NCBI RefSeq assembly: GCF_002844555.1
Contig: NZ_PJNI01000008.1
Location: 124,001 to 188,000 of the forward strand
DNA from: Brumimicrobium salinarum
GTDB lineage: Bacteria; Bacteroidota; Bacteroidia; Flavobacteriales_D; Crocinitomicaceae
Reading direction: 5' to 3'
DNA length: 64,000 nt
In this document: piece by piece, positions 46,484 to 55,505 of the stretch
How positions within the stretch are numbered: the first letter of the stretch is position 1
Layout: each line of letters starts with the position of its first letter
The notes under the pieces: generated by a model
Database searches by the model: none
Seen by the model: only the letters and a program-made list of their open reading frames with translations
What the model was told of the DNA's origin: nothing
Translations under genes and position numbers: made by a program

Positions 46484-46885
46484 ATGGAAATATTAGAAAA
46501 AAGTTCAACACCGGTAACTCCCCATATTAATTTTAACCCAAAAACTGGAGTTATGTTGATTCAAGGTCGAGCAATTCCACAAAATGCGGAAGAGTTTTGG
46601 GGACCTGTTTTAAAATGGTTTTACGCTTATTCGATTGCTCCTCAATCGAATACCAAGCTTGTTTTTAATATGGAGTATTACAACAATTCAAGTTCTCGCC
46701 AAATTCTTTTTTTACTGCATAAATTAAATGAACTTAAGGAACAAGGCTACAACGCATCTGTGTTGTGGAAATATACTACAGAAGATAAAGAGATGAAAGA
46801 AGCAGGCTATGATTTTTCCTGTATGGTAGAAGTTCCTTTTGAATTTGAGGTTGTAAATGTTGAAAAAGATGAGATTTATAAATAG
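46484..46885 (+). CDS. SiaC-family (DUF1987) regulatory phosphoprotein
   Basis: 133 residues matching DUF1987 (P-H-I-N-F-N-P-K-T-G-V-M-L-I-Q-G-R-A-I-P, F-W-G-P-V-L-K-W, M-E-Y-Y-N-N-S-S-S-R-Q-I). In Pseudomonas, SiaC is phosphorylated on Thr by SiaB and stimulates the diguanylate cyclase SiaD. Here the corresponding stretch is N-S-S-S-R, so a serine would be the target. No siaB/siaD-like gene lies in this window. Confidence 0.82.
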   Translation: MEILEKSSTPVTPHINFNPKTGVMLIQGRAIPQNAEEFWGPVLKWFYAYSIAPQSNTKLVFNMEYYNNSSSRQILFLLHKLNELKEQGYNASVLWKYTTEDKEMKEAGYDFSCMVEVPFEFEVVNVEKDEIYK

Positions 46886-47482
46886 CTCAATGATTGTAAT
46901 ATGTTCAGGAACAATTAATGTATAACTGTTGTCCTTATTGGTGAAGTAATTCTGTTCAACAAAACTATACTTAATTCACCCCTAAAATTGAATCCGAGGC
47001 ACTATAAAATTTCACTTAAGTAATCGATTTAAAGCACTCAATCCAATCTGCACTGGTATAATATGAATTCTTATATACTTGAAATTGATTTGTTTCGAGA
47101 GAGGGTATTATGTGTTTCTAATATTGAATTATGCTGATATAGAGCTAAAATAGGTCTATACGTTAGATATTCTTTTTTCTTATATAACTGTCCATTGATT
47201 TGTTGATAGATATAAATATGTGGATTTTGGGGCATAGAGAGTGTTAAAGGTTAATGTCTTATGAGGAAATACATTTCAGATGTTTCAAAAGAATCTTTAA
47301 GAGCCTATTATTGGATTTAAGTTGGATTTAATTAATCAAAAAAAACTAAGCTTCCGACCTATGTAAACCTAATGTAAACCCAAATAATTTTAGGTATTAT
47401 ACATTTTTAATAATATTTGTCAAGGAAATTCATTTTTGGTTTTGAAACAAATGTTAAAAGTCTATTACTTAAAAAAAACAAT
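46886..47482. other. long intergenic region upstream of the FGE cassette
   Basis: About 600 bp with no gene that I can support. Two features stand out near its end: the 11-bp-spaced direct repeat at 47361-47380 and a TTTG-type -7 element at about 47412-47420. Confidence 0.5.
47361..47380 (+). promoter_or_regulatory. 11-bp-period direct repeat ATGTAAACC
   Basis: ATGTAAACC occurs at 47361-47369 and 47372-47380, exactly one helical turn apart. That spacing is typical of OmpR/PhoB-family binding sites. It ends about 37-40 bp upstream of a TA-N3-TTTG box for the FGE cassette, a position suited to activation. Confidence 0.45.
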
Positions 47483-49027
47483 ATGAAAATTAAACTATTT
47501 TTAATATTAGTCCAAATAATCTTATCTGGATTGTCACTTGCGAATAACTTAAAAATAAATAATGTCACACGTCCTTCCAATGACAAAGTTTCCTTTGATT
47601 TGCAGTGGGATAATAGTTGGAATTTTAATGGTTTGTCAAGTACAGCAGAAAACTGGGATGCAGTTTGGGTGTTTGTGAAAGTTCAAGATTGTAATTCTGA
47701 TTTTAAGACATGGGAACACGGTGATTTAAGCACCAATTCTTCAGATCATGTTGCTTCTGGTGGAATATTAACAGTTGATGCCGTTTCAGATGGAAAAGGT
47801 GTTTTTATAAAAAGACAAAGTAGAGGTGTTGGAAATATTTCCTCTACCAGCATTACCTTAACGTTTCAAACTGCTTACAACCCAAGTAACATTAGCCTAG
47901 AAGTATTCGGAATAGAGATGGTCTCTGTGCTAGATGGCGCATTTGAAGTTGGAGGAACTTCCGGTTCTTATAATAGTTTGGATGCTGGAGTAGCTTTTAA
48001 CAATGGACACACTATTTCAAGTGAAAGTGCGATAAGTGCAGGACTGTTAAAAACAGAGGGTGCACCAAACACCCCTTCTGAACTTAGTTACAACCCATCC
48101 ATTCCTGCGAATTTTCCAAAAGGATACAATTTCTTTTATATTATGAAGTATGAAATAACACAGGAACAGTATGTTAACTTCTTGAACCTTTTGAACTATG
48201 CGCAACAGACTGTACGTACCTCTCATCTTCCTAATTCCCCAACGGGAACAAATGGTTTAGCTCCGAATCCAACGAGTATAATGAATCGGAATGGGGTCCG
48301 AATTATTACACCAGGAAATCTTAGTCCAGATAACAAGCCTGCAATTTATGGATGTGACCTCAATAATAATGGTGTCTTTAACGAAGCGGATGATGGTCAA
48401 AATTTGGCTTGTAATTATTTAAGTTGGCCTGATATTCTTGCTTATCTAGATTGGTCTGGACTACGTCCAATGACAGAGTTAGAATTTGAAAAAGCTTGTC
48501 GTGGTCCCTTACCCGTAGTTACGGATGAATACGCGTGGGGAGCTAAAGAGATCATCCAAACAAGTTCAAATACCATATCAGATGCTGGTACAAAAGATGA
48601 ACTTTCAACCATTGAGGCGACCCCTGTTGATGGCTTAGCCGCAATAAATGGTGATTCTAATAATGATGGTCCTTTAAGAGTTGGTTTCGCTGCATCCAAC
48701 ATTCCTACAAGAGCCGGAGCTGGAGCTTCTTACTGGAGCTCATTAGACATGACTGGAAACCTATGGGAGCAAACTGTTTCAGTAGGCTATGCAAACGGAA
48801 ACATATCAAGCTTTACTGGGGTATTAGGTGATGGAAAACTTAATAATAGTGGAGACGCCGATCAATCAGGTTGGAACTTAGATCCTACTTTCAGCATTGT
48901 TAGAGGTGGTAGCTACGCATCAGGTGATTTTCAAAGTAGGGTAGGTGATAGGGTTAATATAAACTCGACAACTTACAACTTCAATAGAAACCCTGAAGCT
49001 GGTGGTCGTGGAGTACGACAATATTAA
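47483..49027 (+). CDS. secreted FGE/SUMF1-fold protein with novel N-terminal domain (cassette gene 1)
   Basis: 514 residues from ATG 47483 (signal peptide cleaved near S-L-A-N). Domain 1 (about 20-150) is a beta-rich module with W-D-N-S-W, N-W-D-A-V-W-V-F-V-K, S-T-N-S-S-D-H and D-G-K-G-V-F-I, ending in E-V-F-G-I-E-M-V. Domain 2 (about 150-514) is an FGE fold: Y-I-M-K-Y-E-I-T-Q-E-Q-Y, a Ca-loop-like D-L-N-N-N-G-V-F-N-E-A-D, A-C-N-Y-L-S-W, L-R-P-M-T-E-L-E-F-E-K-A-C-R-G, D-M-T-G-N-L-W-E-Q and R-G-G-S-Y. The catalytic Cys pair after RGGS is absent. First gene of a three-gene operon (gaps 25 and 31 bp). Probably a surface-assembly factor; mechanism unknown. Confidence 0.82.
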   Translation: MKIKLFLILVQIILSGLSLANNLKINNVTRPSNDKVSFDLQWDNSWNFNGLSSTAENWDAVWVFVKVQDCNSDFKTWEHGDLSTNSSDHVASGGILTVDAVSDGKGVFIKRQSRGVGNISSTSITLTFQTAYNPSNISLEVFGIEMVSVLDGAFEVGGTSGSYNSLDAGVAFNNGHTISSESAISAGLLKTEGAPNTPSELSYNPSIPANFPKGYNFFYIMKYEITQEQYVNFLNLLNYAQQTVRTSHLPNSPTGTNGLAPNPTSIMNRNGVRIITPGNLSPDNKPAIYGCDLNNNGVFNEADDGQNLACNYLSWPDILAYLDWSGLRPMTELEFEKACRGPLPVVTDEYAWGAKEIIQTSSNTISDAGTKDELSTIEATPVDGLAAINGDSNNDGPLRVGFAASNIPTRAGAGASYWSSLDMTGNLWEQTVSVGYANGNISSFTGVLGDGKLNNSGDADQSGWNLDPTFSIVRGGSYASGDFQSRVGDRVNINSTTYNFNRNPEAGGRGVRQY

Positions 49028-49052
49028 TTCTATTTATATAGTCAGGTATCAA

Positions 49053-50198
49053 ATGAATATGATTAAATGGTATTATAAAATATTAATCACATTGTTGATC
49101 CAAATATGCAGTATTGCAGTCTTTGGCCAAGCTCCATTCTATGGAGGGCCTGGGAATGGAGCTTCAAGTGAAAAATTATTAGCTTCAAGCTGTAGTACAA
49201 CATCGTACTCATCGTTCTTAGGTGGAGAATCTGATGGGAATACTAATGCAAAATATGGAACCTCTTGTGAATCCACTTCAATCTCTATGTTTGCAGGAAG
49301 TAACTCAGATGGTTTTTCAAGTAGTAACATAGGCGGAAGTTGTGATACTTATTCATACAATCCTTTTTTAGGTGGTGAATCTGATGGTAATTCTAACGCA
49401 AAATACGGCACCTCATGTGAGCCAAAAACAGTAACCTTATTTGCAGGAGGTTCCACAGATGGTTTTACAAACAATAATTTGAATGGGTTCTGTGACGTTA
49501 TTTCTTATAACTCTTATCTTGGAGGAGAAACAGATGGTTACACCAATTCCGTTTATGGAACTCCTTGTGAATCTAAAACAATTACATTATTTGCTGGAAG
49601 TAGTACGGATGGATTCAGCTCTCATAACCTTGGTGTAGATTGTAATATCGACCCTTTACCTATTGAATTACTGTACTTTGATGCAATTAAAGAGAATGAA
49701 AAAGTAAGAAATCAATGGGTTACAATGAGTGAGCGAAATAATGATTTTTTCACCATAGAGAGATCACTAGATGGATATCAATGGAAAGAACTAGGAACAG
49801 TGCCGGGAGCTGGAAACTCGTCTACAGAATTAAATTATCATTGGTATGATATGCATCCGAAACAAGGTATTTTATATTACCGTTTAAAACAAACAGATTT
49901 TGATGGTGCTTATACGTATTCAGACATTAGATCAGTTGTTTTTGATAATTATTCAAACGACAATATTACATTATATCCGAACCCTACAAGTGGTAAGGTT
50001 CAATTGAAAGTCATTAAAGGCAAATTAAAAAACGTTTCAATTAGTATTTATGATGCCCAAGGGCAATTGGTATTTGAATTGCCAAACTTTTCTGGTACAT
50101 CTCATGTTTTTGACCTTTCATTTTTCCAAAAAGGAATTTATATAATGAAAATACGAAGTGATGAAGAATTAAAAGCTTTTAAAATAGTAAACCAATAA
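49053..50198 (+). CDS. T9SS cargo with six 25-residue Cys/GG-x-DG repeats (cassette gene 2)
   Basis: 381 residues from ATG 49053. The signal peptide ends at V-F-G-Q. Six exact 25-residue repeats follow (codons 49191-49640), each beginning with Cys and carrying (L/A)-G-G/S-x-x-D-G near its centre. Odd and even units alternate in type (F-L-G-G-E-S-D-G-N versus F-A-G-S-x-x-D-G-F), so the true period is 50 residues, three times. A seventh Cys closes the array. A linker domain (about 220-305) leads to a T9SS type A sorting domain (about 310-381; L-Y-P-N-P-T-S-G-K and G-I-Y-I-M-K-I). It lies between two FGE-like genes and is their likely partner. Confidence 0.88.
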   Translation: MNMIKWYYKILITLLIQICSIAVFGQAPFYGGPGNGASSEKLLASSCSTTSYSSFLGGESDGNTNAKYGTSCESTSISMFAGSNSDGFSSSNIGGSCDTYSYNPFLGGESDGNSNAKYGTSCEPKTVTLFAGGSTDGFTNNNLNGFCDVISYNSYLGGETDGYTNSVYGTPCESKTITLFAGSSTDGFSSHNLGVDCNIDPLPIELLYFDAIKENEKVRNQWVTMSERNNDFFTIERSLDGYQWKELGTVPGAGNSSTELNYHWYDMHPKQGILYYRLKQTDFDGAYTYSDIRSVVFDNYSNDNITLYPNPTSGKVQLKVIKGKLKNVSISIYDAQGQLVFELPNFSGTSHVFDLSFFQKGIYIMKIRSDEELKAFKIVNQ

Positions 50199-50229
50199 AA
50201 CGATTATTAAGAATTTAAAATATAGAAAA

Positions 50230-52209
50230 ATGAAAAAATATAAACTACTTCTAGTATTTGTTTTTACCTTATTATGCAACACTATTCTTGCAAGTAATGT
50301 TCAAATAACTAATGTTACTCGTCCAGCCAATGATATCTTAAAGTTTGATGTTTCTTGGGAAAACAGTTGGTACCTTAATACTTCCCCTAATAATTGGGAT
50401 GCAGTTTGGGTATTTATAAAGGCTCAAGATTGTAACACAGAGTTGAAAGAATGGAAACATGCAGATGTTAGCACTAATTCTTCCGACCATAATGTATCAG
50501 GTGGTATTCTTCAAGTTGATGCTGTTACTGACGGAAAAGGTGTTTTTATCCGTAGAACTAATCATGGTTTTGGGAATATTCCAACGGCATCTGTCGAGGT
50601 AAAGCTTCAAAACGCAACATATCCTAATAATGGTACGGTAAACTTTGAGGTTTTGGGAATTGAAATGGTCGCTGTTTTAACTGGAGACTTCCAAGTTGGT
50701 AACGCTCATGAAGCAACGCACAGTTTTGAAACAACAACAATTAGCTCTGAGAACGCTATAAATTCTGGGGCTCTTATAAAAAATACAAATAATAAAAGCA
50801 GCAATGCAACACTACCTAATGACTTTCCTAAGGGGTATGATCAATTTTATATAATGAAATATGAAATATCTCAAAATCAATATGCTAAATTTCTAAACTT
50901 ACTCAGTTATAACCAACAGTTTTTTAGAACTAGCAACCCGCCAACTGCTTCTCCAAATACCAATGCTTTATCTGATCAACCGAATGGTATCAGATATAGA
51001 AACGGAATAATCCTTACTGCCCCTGGTTCTGTTAGCAATGGTGCAGAATATGGTGCCGATTACAACGATAACACTACAGTGAATGAATCTGATGATGGAC
51101 AAAGTATAGCTTGTAATTTCTTAAAATGGACAGACTTACTCGCTTACCTTGATTGGGCTGCGCTTAGACCAATGACCGAATTGGAGTACGAAAAAGCATG
51201 TAGAGGTGAGAATTCAGCTGTTACTGATGAATATGCTTGGGGAAATAAGATTGTTCATGGTGCGAAATCTATTTCAATTAATAATGATGGACAAGGAAGT
51301 GAAACTTCAACAACAACAGCACCTGCAAATCATGGTGTTGCAGCTGTATTAGGTAAAAACGAAACATCAAGTGGACCTCTTCGCGTTGGGTTTGCAGCTT
51401 CTCAAGGTTCGCCTACTCGCCTTAGTGCTGGGGCATCTTATTGGGGCGTTTTAGATCTAACAGGTAACGTTTGGGAACAAACCGTATCGGCAGGATTTGA
51501 GAGTTCAAATATCTCATCTTTTACCGGTGGACTAGGAGATGGTGAAATAACATCTGATGGAAAAGCAAATCAAGCAGACTGGGAGCTAGACCCCTTATAT
51601 AGTCTAGTAAAAGGTGGAAGTTGGATGTCTGGAGCTCTTCTTCCTGATTCTGCTTATTGTTTTCCGACCAGTAATAGCAATAAAAAAAACATCAACTATC
51701 ATATAAGCAGGTTTAGGTTGGCTAACGTAGACCACAGCACACCCTATACAGATACGATTTACAATGATTATACTGCTCAAGTTGAGCCAATTCTTATGTA
51801 TCCTGGACAGCCTTATACCCCTTATGTTACAGTCTCAAATGGTTATAGGCCCTATGTTAGAGTTTGGATTGATGAAAACAATAACGGACAATTTGAAAGT
51901 ACGGAACGAGTATCTTACTATGGTACTTCTGGAACTATAAACGGTGAATTTGCTATTCCTGACATATCCGTGTCATTACCTCCAGGTTCTTATAGGCTAC
52001 GGGTTGCCTATAGTCAGTATTATGCGCCTTCCGCGAATGGATGTGACCCTGCAAATGGTAATTATTGGAGTTCTGGTTCAGAAATAGAGGACTACACACT
52101 TGTTGTTGGTGGTTTAGATCCAGTTGGTTCTAGAGTTAATATCGGAGACACTAAGTTTAATGCTGACCGGCATCCTGCCACAGGTGGTAGAGGTGTTCGT
52201 CAATTTTAA
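50230..52209 (+). CDS. secreted FGE/SUMF1-fold protein with inserted GEVED domain (cassette gene 3)
   Basis: 659 residues, paralogous to cassette gene 1 throughout (N-terminal W-E-N-S-W / N-W-D-A-V-W-V-F-I-K domain at about 20-150, then FGE fold). The major difference is an insertion of about 160 residues (roughly 472-632, DNA about 51645-52128) placed after V-K-G-G-S-W and before the final V-G-S-R-V-N...G-G-R-G-V-R-Q-F. The insert is a GEVED module (Y-C-F-P-T, Y-N-D-Y-T, V-R-V-W-I-D-E-N-N-N-G-Q-F, G-S-E-I-E-D-Y-T-L). GEVED domains occur in Bacteroidota surface proteins and likely bind ligands. The FGE catalytic cysteines are missing here too. Confidence 0.83.
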   Translation: MKKYKLLLVFVFTLLCNTILASNVQITNVTRPANDILKFDVSWENSWYLNTSPNNWDAVWVFIKAQDCNTELKEWKHADVSTNSSDHNVSGGILQVDAVTDGKGVFIRRTNHGFGNIPTASVEVKLQNATYPNNGTVNFEVLGIEMVAVLTGDFQVGNAHEATHSFETTTISSENAINSGALIKNTNNKSSNATLPNDFPKGYDQFYIMKYEISQNQYAKFLNLLSYNQQFFRTSNPPTASPNTNALSDQPNGIRYRNGIILTAPGSVSNGAEYGADYNDNTTVNESDDGQSIACNFLKWTDLLAYLDWAALRPMTELEYEKACRGENSAVTDEYAWGNKIVHGAKSISINNDGQGSETSTTTAPANHGVAAVLGKNETSSGPLRVGFAASQGSPTRLSAGASYWGVLDLTGNVWEQTVSAGFESSNISSFTGGLGDGEITSDGKANQADWELDPLYSLVKGGSWMSGALLPDSAYCFPTSNSNKKNINYHISRFRLANVDHSTPYTDTIYNDYTAQVEPILMYPGQPYTPYVTVSNGYRPYVRVWIDENNNGQFESTERVSYYGTSGTINGEFAIPDISVSLPPGSYRLRVAYSQYYAPSANGCDPANGNYWSSGSEIEDYTLVVGGLDPVGSRVNIGDTKFNADRHPATGGRGVRQF

Positions 52210-52667: not shown

Positions 52668-53225
52668 ATGAGTAGAAATTATCGGTTTCACAACCCTGAA
52701 GCGCCTTATTTTGTAAGTTTTTCAGTTGTAGAATGGTTAGATGTATTTACAAGAAATGAATACAAAGACATTTTAATTGACAGTTTACATTATTGTCAAG
52801 AAAAAAAAGGAATGGAAATTTACGCATGGTGTATACTGTCAAATCATGTCCATTTAGTTTTTAGAAGTACTGAAGGAATGCCACCAGGTCAGTTACTCGG
52901 AAGTTTTAAACGACATACAAGCATGGCTGTCGTAGAAGCAATTAAAGAAAATGACAGGGAAAGTAGAAAAGAAAATTTGTTGGAAACTTTTAAACGCAAT
53001 GGAAGTAAAAAATCTAATGTAACATATAATCAATTCTGGCGACAAGACAATAAACCAATCGAATTATGGAGTAATTTTGTAATTTCTCAAAAAATTAGAT
53101 ATATCCATAATAATCCTGTAGAGCAAGGACTTGTTTTTAGACCAGAAGATTATCTATACAGCAGCGCAGTAGACTATAGTGGTGAGAAAGGTGTTTTAAA
53201 TGGAGTTGTGGTTGTTGGATTGTAA
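52668..53225 (+). CDS. REP-associated tyrosine transposase (RAYT)
   Basis: 185 residues of the Y1 (IS200-like) transposase fold. The HUH motif is N-H-V-H-L-V-F (H60, H62), preceded by M-E-I-Y-A-W-C-I-L-S. The catalytic tyrosine is most likely Y145 in Q-K-I-R-Y-I-H-N-N-P-V-E-Q-G-L. RAYTs are single-copy domesticated relatives of IS200 that copy REP palindromes around genomes. A REP (53267-53293) lies 42 bp downstream and a near-identical copy at 28577-28603; REP-like hairpins follow at 54051-54115. It appears intact. Confidence 0.92.
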   Translation: MSRNYRFHNPEAPYFVSFSVVEWLDVFTRNEYKDILIDSLHYCQEKKGMEIYAWCILSNHVHLVFRSTEGMPPGQLLGSFKRHTSMAVVEAIKENDRESRKENLLETFKRNGSKKSNVTYNQFWRQDNKPIELWSNFVISQKIRYIHNNPVEQGLVFRPEDYLYSSAVDYSGEKGVLNGVVVVGL

Positions 53226-55328: not shown

Positions 55329-55497
55329 AATTACGAATCGTTTAATTACGAATTCCTGGAACCTTTAAAATTCATAAATCCCCGATTCATAATTCTCCCA
55401 TTCGTAATTCGTAATTAACTTTCATTCATAATTAACTTATTCGTAATTCGTAATTGATTTTCATTCGTAATTCCCCCATTCGTAATTCGTAATTGAC
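55329..55497. repeat. ATTCGTAATTCGTAATT tandem repeat array
   Basis: The 8-bp unit ATTCGTAA (variants ATTCATAA) occurs many times, usually in pairs ending AATTAACTT or AATTGATTTTC, filling the gap between M42 peptidase and rhodanese. The same unit occurs at 25810-25892 and, in degenerate form, at 60387-60462. Confidence 0.8.
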
Positions 55498-55505
55498 TAT
55501 ATTTG
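55498..55505 (+). promoter_or_regulatory. -7 promoter box TATATTTG for rhodanese
   Basis: Perfect TAnnTTTG element 26 bases before the ATG, immediately after the repeat array. Confidence 0.65.

Follow-up and report, generated by a model that had tools for sequence, protein, structure and literature searches.

A recurrent pairing of an FGE-like protein lacking the catalytic cysteines with a GGxxxG-motif partner in Brumimicrobium salinarum and other Bacteroidota, with matched cysteines that suggest a disulfide lock

The window analyzed here is a 64,000-nucleotide stretch of the Brumimicrobium salinarum genome (contig NZ_PJNI01000008.1, positions 124,001 to 188,000), and the subject of this work is a cassette of three genes at window positions 47,483 to 52,209. 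Genes 1 and 3 encode exported proteins with the fold of the formylglycine-generating enzyme (FGE, or SUMF1), while gene 2, located between them, encodes a repeat protein carrying a sorting tail of the type IX secretion system (T9SS), i.e., a T9SS cargo. An initial annotation, made from the sequence without database searches, had proposed this arrangement and its features, and both hold: all three genes lie on the + strand, with intergenic gaps of 25 bp (genes 1-2) and 31 bp (genes 2-3). In window coordinates, the features are as follows:

47483..49027, + strand: gene 1, exported FGE-like protein of 514 amino acids with a signal peptide, an N-terminal domain, and an FGE fold (Pfam, AlphaFold2 model)
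47543..47929, + strand: gene 1 N-terminal domain, approximately residues 21-149, a predicted beta-sandwich (model strand pattern) and the proposed motif-docking domain
47690..47692, + strand: codon of gene 1 Cys70, the sole cysteine in the mature N-terminal domain, proposed to form a disulfide with cargo cysteines
48128..49024, + strand: gene 1 FGE-like domain without the catalytic cysteine pair (PF03781, residues 216-494)
49053..50198, + strand: gene 2, T9SS cargo of 381 amino acids that contains GGxxxG-type motifs and cysteines, seven of each
49134..49643, + strand: gene 2 motif array, residues 28-197, where each of the seven motifs has a single cysteine at +15/+16 after GG
49971..50189, + strand: gene 2 type A T9SS sorting domain, residues 307-379 (TIGR04183, PF18962)
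50230..52209, + strand: gene 3, second exported FGE-like protein, of 659 amino acids, with an internal GEVED domain
50431..50433, + strand: codon of gene 3 Cys68, aligned with gene 1 Cys70
51853..52101, + strand: GEVED domain interrupting the gene 3 FGE fold, residues 542-624 (PF20009)

Genes 1 and 3 had been read as paralogues with an FGE fold and a common uncharacterized N-terminal domain. In agreement with this, both products match the Pfam FGE-sulfatase family (PF03781) above its gathering cut-off of 23.3 bits (48.4 bits for gene 1 and 58.2 bits for gene 3), and they are ~53-55% identical across most of their length, the ~130 N-terminal residues included. An AlphaFold2 model of gene 1, built with 85 relatives, has a predicted local distance difference test score (pLDDT) of 90.7 and a predicted template modelling score of 0.92, and its C-terminal part compares with the solved structures of FGE, CalU17, EgtB, PvdO, and PorK at a Z of ~19. 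The catalytic cysteine pair of true FGE is missing from gene 1 (RGGSYASGDFQSR), as the initial annotation had stated for both proteins; the active-site region lacks both cysteines in gene 1 (RGGSYASGDFQSRVGDR) and in the RGGSW-equivalent segment of gene 3, and no conserved cysteine is present in the 85-member alignment of FGE-like proteins. The signal peptide ends in LANN in gene 1 and in LASN in gene 3, with no lipobox in either; a lipobox pattern was found in just 2 of 100 relatives, and a T9SS tail in 0 of 85 FGE-like proteins.

The N-terminal domain of genes 1 and 3 is matched by no Pfam or NCBIfam model. Its predicted strand pattern in gene 1 is that of a beta-sandwich, and the conserved positions are N22, W42, N44, S45, W46, N57, D59, A60, W62, K66, W77, and H79. 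A more specific fold name was not adopted, as the similarities to known beta-sandwiches are too weak (best Z of 6.4, a carbohydrate-binding module). Gene 3 additionally contains a GEVED domain (PF20009, 49.7 bits against a cut-off of 24.4) that the initial annotation had overlooked. It separates GGSW from the C-terminal tail common to genes 1 and 3, at the place of the catalytic cysteine loop in true FGE, and such an insertion is present in 1 of 85 relatives. Some of the other FGE-like proteins have a second C-terminal domain.

The C-terminal tail of gene 2 matches TIGR04183 at 49.7 bits (cut-off 23) and PF18962 as well, and the seven cysteines are located at residues 47, 72, 97, 122, 147, 172, and 197, with a spacing of exactly 25; the sorting domain and the cysteine intervals had both been recognized correctly from the sequence. 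The 25-residue units between the cysteines alternate A-B-A-B-A-B (identity of 0.60-0.80 within A, 0.40-0.64 within B, and 0.24-0.44 for A versus B). The number of motifs is seven, where the initial annotation had counted six repeats. The first motif, FYGGPGNG at residues 29-36, lies just past the signal peptide, and its cysteine is Cys47. Calcium-binding RTX repeats (GGxGxDxUx) were considered and ruled out, the motif spacing being 23-29 residues (25 in gene 2) rather than that of a nonapeptide. The Brumimicrobium genome encodes SprA (2425.6 bits) as well as a GldK of its own; it therefore has a T9SS, whose ring proteins are distinct from the products of genes 1 and 3. The true GldK is found at G000:C86 with 565.6 bits to the curated GldK model (cut-off 350 bits), to which gene 3 scores 11.2 bits and for which gene 1 is not listed.

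FGE-like relatives were gathered from genome contigs, from near relatives, and from samples of the phylum and the order. At least 513 stretches of the genome collection encode such a protein, and ~80 of these were read. At 69 of 77 loci, the next same-strand gene encodes GGxxxG within its first 150 residues, as opposed to 29 of 437 genes located three or more genes away (Fisher p 1e-52). The stricter pattern [YFW]xGGxxxG, searched over the same 150 residues, is present in the next gene at 68 of 78 loci and in 4 of 440 genes three or more away. A co-occurrence search across genomes had been named by the initial annotation as one way to refute its proposal, and by these counts the pair occurs far above chance. 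When the first 60 residues are considered, the strict motif is found in 60 of 78 next genes and in 0 of 156 secreted-like genes; after residue shuffling, 2.8 of 78 carry it. Tandem-repeat cargos behave in the same way. Of the 41 loci having one within two genes, all except one have it adjoining the FGE-like gene, and none of the 403 genes four or more away encodes such a cargo. Three cargos overlooked by the gene caller were later recovered, and another was recognized at the end of a contig. The strict motif was found at 26 of 47 loci in the independent samples of the phylum and the order; divergent members, and one family with an unrelated next gene, account for many of the remainder.

The reverse search gives a similar picture. 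Among 349 genomes of the order, 20 have an FGE-like gene and 12 are matched by a cargo profile, with 11 genomes in both sets (the twelfth profile match is at a contig edge). The overlap has a p of ~1e-14, although FGE-linked cargos had been used to build the profile, which makes the test less than fully independent. On a set of 395 genomes a cargo profile had low sensitivity, matching 4 genomes, all with an FGE-like gene. A DNA pattern for 27-residue GGxxDG repeats yielded 3 matches in these 395 genomes, about as many as its reversed control, and was uninformative. As for gene order, the cargo usually follows one FGE-like gene or two in a row. The flanking arrangement emphasized by the initial annotation is true of this locus but not general, since FGE-like genes on both sides of a cargo occur in 1 of 87 loci, namely the cassette in the window.

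The same genome carries a second cassette, with two FGE-like genes followed by a cargo (G000:C23:205302-208102 and downstream; L008:9303-13291). Its motif reads GGxYSG with a 44-residue period, it has N-terminal cysteines of its own, and it groups on the tree with lineages other than that of the window cassette. In a congener (genome G002), the FGE-like gene L021:8031-9536 is split by an in-frame TAA and may be a pseudogene; the repeat cargo there is intact. At four further loci (L056, L057, L078, and L084), the FGE-like gene is preceded by a gene for a propeller-like protein, in which an NGGxxGNP segment close to the N-terminus is conserved. Three of the four have no downstream motif cargo, and the propeller-like protein may be an alternative partner of the FGE-like protein. 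In the GGxGYG group (L022:2676-3401 and L076:382-1197), the gene 5' of the FGE-like gene encodes NNTGIGN-type repeats that resemble trimeric head domains. No phage or plasmid copies of the cassette were found. Two IMG/VR contigs filed as viral (L203 and L204) carry an FGE-like gene and are probably bacterial DNA; the next gene in L203 holds a decayed motif, IFTSSAKADGF.

Across cargos, the first motif copy has a median position of residue 26, directly past the signal peptide, and typically reads AQ[YF]xGGxxxG. The number of copies ranges from one, followed by unrelated domains, up to 21 at a spacing of 23-29 residues, and the rest of the protein consists of PKD, Ig-like, SprB, or other domains, with some cargos being made of repeats alone. 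Outside the motif the cargos are highly variable, and the motif is kept; its glycines apart, the motif itself has differing residues (D, S, N, Y, R). Among the 48 cargos with at least two tandem units, 43 have exactly one cysteine in every unit and 3 have none. The 25-residue cysteine repeat on which the initial annotation centered is real in gene 2, but it is one version of a broader motif that is usually N-terminal, sometimes single, and sometimes free of cysteine. A T9SS tail is present in 42-43 of 67 cargos and absent from the others, so the common item is the motif and not the export route. The earlier suggestion that the module is tied to type IX export does not hold for these cargos, nor for the FGE-like proteins, whose sequences lack the tail altogether.

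The position of the cysteines in the N-terminal domain of the FGE-like protein corresponds to the position of the cysteine in the neighboring cargo. In type A, a single N-terminal cysteine at 70 goes with a cargo cysteine at +14 to +18 after GG, mostly +16 (52/52 pairs). In type B, an N-terminal cysteine at 140, just before an EMV motif, goes with a cargo cysteine at +10 (3/3 pairs; the cysteine is at +10 in 14/14 motifs of L023, 10/10 of L244, and 1/1 of L077). Type C has two N-terminal cysteines, near 70 and at 135, and cargo cysteines at -5 and +12 (4/4: L083, L095, L104, and L216). Where the N-terminal cysteine is absent or elsewhere (type 0), the motif has no cysteine in 37 of 38 pairs. 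Altogether, 96 of 97 FGE-cargo pairs agree, and almost all FGE-like copies within a multi-copy locus are of the same type. Locus L058, which is nested among type A, has lost both the N-terminal and the cargo cysteines. Six loci inspected after the rule had been set all follow it (L090 as type C, L248 as type A, L245 as type B, and L062, L066, and L071 as type 0); the cargo of L090 had earlier been overlooked. Presence of Cys70 correlates with the cargo cysteine at a phi of 0.84, compared with 0.44 for the best cysteine in its own FGE domain, and Cys70 therefore has no evident partner in its own chain.

The initial annotation supposed that the FGE-like proteins bind, modify, or arrange the cysteine repeats; a cysteine link does exist, but it runs through the N-terminal domain and not through the FGE active site. 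Cysteine oxidation as a general function was rejected, given that the catalytic pair is missing and many motifs contain no cysteine. The preference of the initial annotation for recognition or scaffolding over cysteine oxidation is favored by the recurrence of the pair and its association with the motif, and our favored reading of the sequences is a non-catalytic FGE-like protein that recognizes or scaffolds the motif.

We think it probable, though well short of assured, that the cassette is a copy of a conserved two-component module in which the N-terminal domain docks the motif and, in lineages that have the cysteines, a disulfide locks it. The proteins of genes 1 and 3 would be exported by Sec and would not act as FGE catalysts. 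The [YF]xGGxxxG motif in the product of the adjacent gene would be docked jointly by their N-terminal domain and the neighboring FGE fold, whereupon Cys70 of gene 1 or Cys68 of gene 3 would form an intermolecular disulfide with the cysteine 15-16 residues past each motif. That the cysteine position in the FGE-like protein predicts the one in the cargo suggests such a lock between them. The repeat protein would thus serve as a scaffold, anchored by the T9SS tail in the case of gene 2, to which every motif would covalently lock a single FGE-like subunit, up to seven here. From what is observed, namely the gene pair, the motif, the FGE fold without catalytic cysteines, and the cysteine match, we infer that the partners bind and form a disulfide, as well as their stoichiometry and their meeting place in the cell. 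A wider formulation, which we hold more tentatively and would not quite expect to be right, is that a non-catalytic FGE-fold family acts as covalent adaptors, in which the N-terminal domain would read GGxxxG, a position-coded cysteine pair would lock the motif, the number of repeats would set the number of adaptors on the surface scaffold, and the code would have been rewired at least three times.

Several observations weigh against the docking-and-lock model. One FGE-like family is followed by an unrelated gene, and six loci with room for a cargo carry none. The FGE-like proteins have neither a T9SS tail nor a lipobox. An AlphaFold2 read-through model of the FGE-like protein and the short cargo of locus L105 showed no readable interface, with the FGE part confident and the cargo at a pLDDT of 53-65. 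Furthermore, the three position classes were defined after the data had been seen; a first, blunter definition gave 51 pairs with both cysteines, 1 with the FGE-like cysteine only, 10 with the cargo cysteine only, and 35 with neither (p 3e-16, ancestry uncorrected). The cysteine traits change only ~4-5 times on the tree. The independent pairs on the tree all point in the same direction, with none opposite, but they are too few for significance (p 0.25), and the tree-corrected support for the match is weak.

In one alternative, the FGE-like protein binds the motif, while the cysteines cross-link the cargo repeats mutually or to another envelope protein and the match merely reflects the shared ancestry of the pair. 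The motif and the FGE-like gene do co-occur even without cysteines, and the Cys70 group nearly coincides with a single clade, such that one event could account for most of the match. Since three distinct cysteine arrangements match by position, L058 lost both cysteines, and the held-out loci obeyed the rule, we regard this alternative as unlikely, if worth keeping in view. More doubtful still is a role for the FGE-like protein as a maturation enzyme that modifies GGxxxG residues by a chemistry other than conversion of cysteine to formylglycine. Its fold relatives EgtB, PvdO, CalU17, and ToxD are enzymes, and true FGE itself binds its client through a short peptide. An enzymatic role is disfavored by the missing catalytic cysteine pair, the variable non-glycine residues of the motif, and the fact that PorK re-uses the same groove non-catalytically (PMC12421860). 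It is similarly improbable that the two proteins are independent surface or periplasmic products of one operon that never come into contact, e.g., two adhesins or glycan binders. The adhesin-type domains of the cargos (PKD, Ig-like, and SprB repeats) and the second C-terminal domain of some FGE-like proteins would fit such a picture, but the motif is kept while the remaining cargo is very variable, and the cysteine match is hard to account for without contact.

The initial annotation had read one apparent promoter for the cassette; a promoter scan returned 22 promoter-like sites compared with 21.8 in shuffles, i.e., no excess. A perfect 12/12 sigma-70 consensus (TTGACA-16-TATAAT) lies just before gene 1 at 47396-47423 on the - strand, and this is likely a chance match because promoters of Bacteroidota are unlike the sigma-70 consensus. 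A gene for a SiaC-family regulatory phosphoprotein (PF09345, 108.5 bits) is found ~600 bp upstream of the cassette at 46484-46885 (+ strand), and an open reading frame resembling an IS200/REP-associated transposase, as judged by eye, is located just 3' of it at 52668-53225 (+ strand). An intergenic, AT-rich 39-bp tandem repeat of ~3 copies spans 55385-55498.

In the literature that was searched, no description of the gene pair, of the motif, or of SUMF1 together with T9SS repeats was retrieved. Current annotations label such proteins formylglycine-generating enzymes or hypothetical surface proteins, whereas a docking pair whose motif can be read is the likelier identity. Use of the FGE fold as a hub is already known, as is the attachment of clients by disulfides, and there is a chance that cysteine-coded docking is something new. 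In PorK, the FGE fold is a docking hub whose former substrate groove docks PorN (PMC12421860), and SprF is disulfide-bonded to GldK, as is PorG to PorK (PMC12635249); both halves of the proposal therefore have precedent in the phylum, and the initial description of the cassette as an assembly module unlike GldJ/GldK becomes doubtful.

Genes 1 and 3 resemble true FGE/SUMF1 in their PF03781 match and, for gene 1, in the fold comparison given above, and differ from it in lacking the catalytic cysteine pair. With its above-threshold TIGR04183 tail, gene 2 resembles the type A cargos of the T9SS, from which it is set apart by its N-terminal GGxxxG motif array; about one third of the related cargos have no T9SS tail. 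Like PorK, the gene 1 model has an FGE fold (Z of ~19 against PorK) and no catalytic cysteines, PorK using this fold for protein docking. In contrast to PorK and GldK, genes 1 and 3 have no lipobox, possess their own N-terminal domain, and are encoded beside a motif cargo. A parallel to the lock proposed here is offered by SprF-GldK and PorG-PorK, where an intermolecular disulfide covalently attaches a client to a protein with the FGE fold. In those two systems a membrane protein is the client and the cysteine lies in GldK or PorK, whereas in the cassette the cysteine lies in an added N-terminal domain, the client carries repeated motifs, and the disulfide is predicted. If that disulfide is true, client attachment of the SprF-GldK kind would extend from two membrane proteins to a phylum-wide repeat scaffold, and a prediction at a single residue, Cys70, follows that is open to a gel test.

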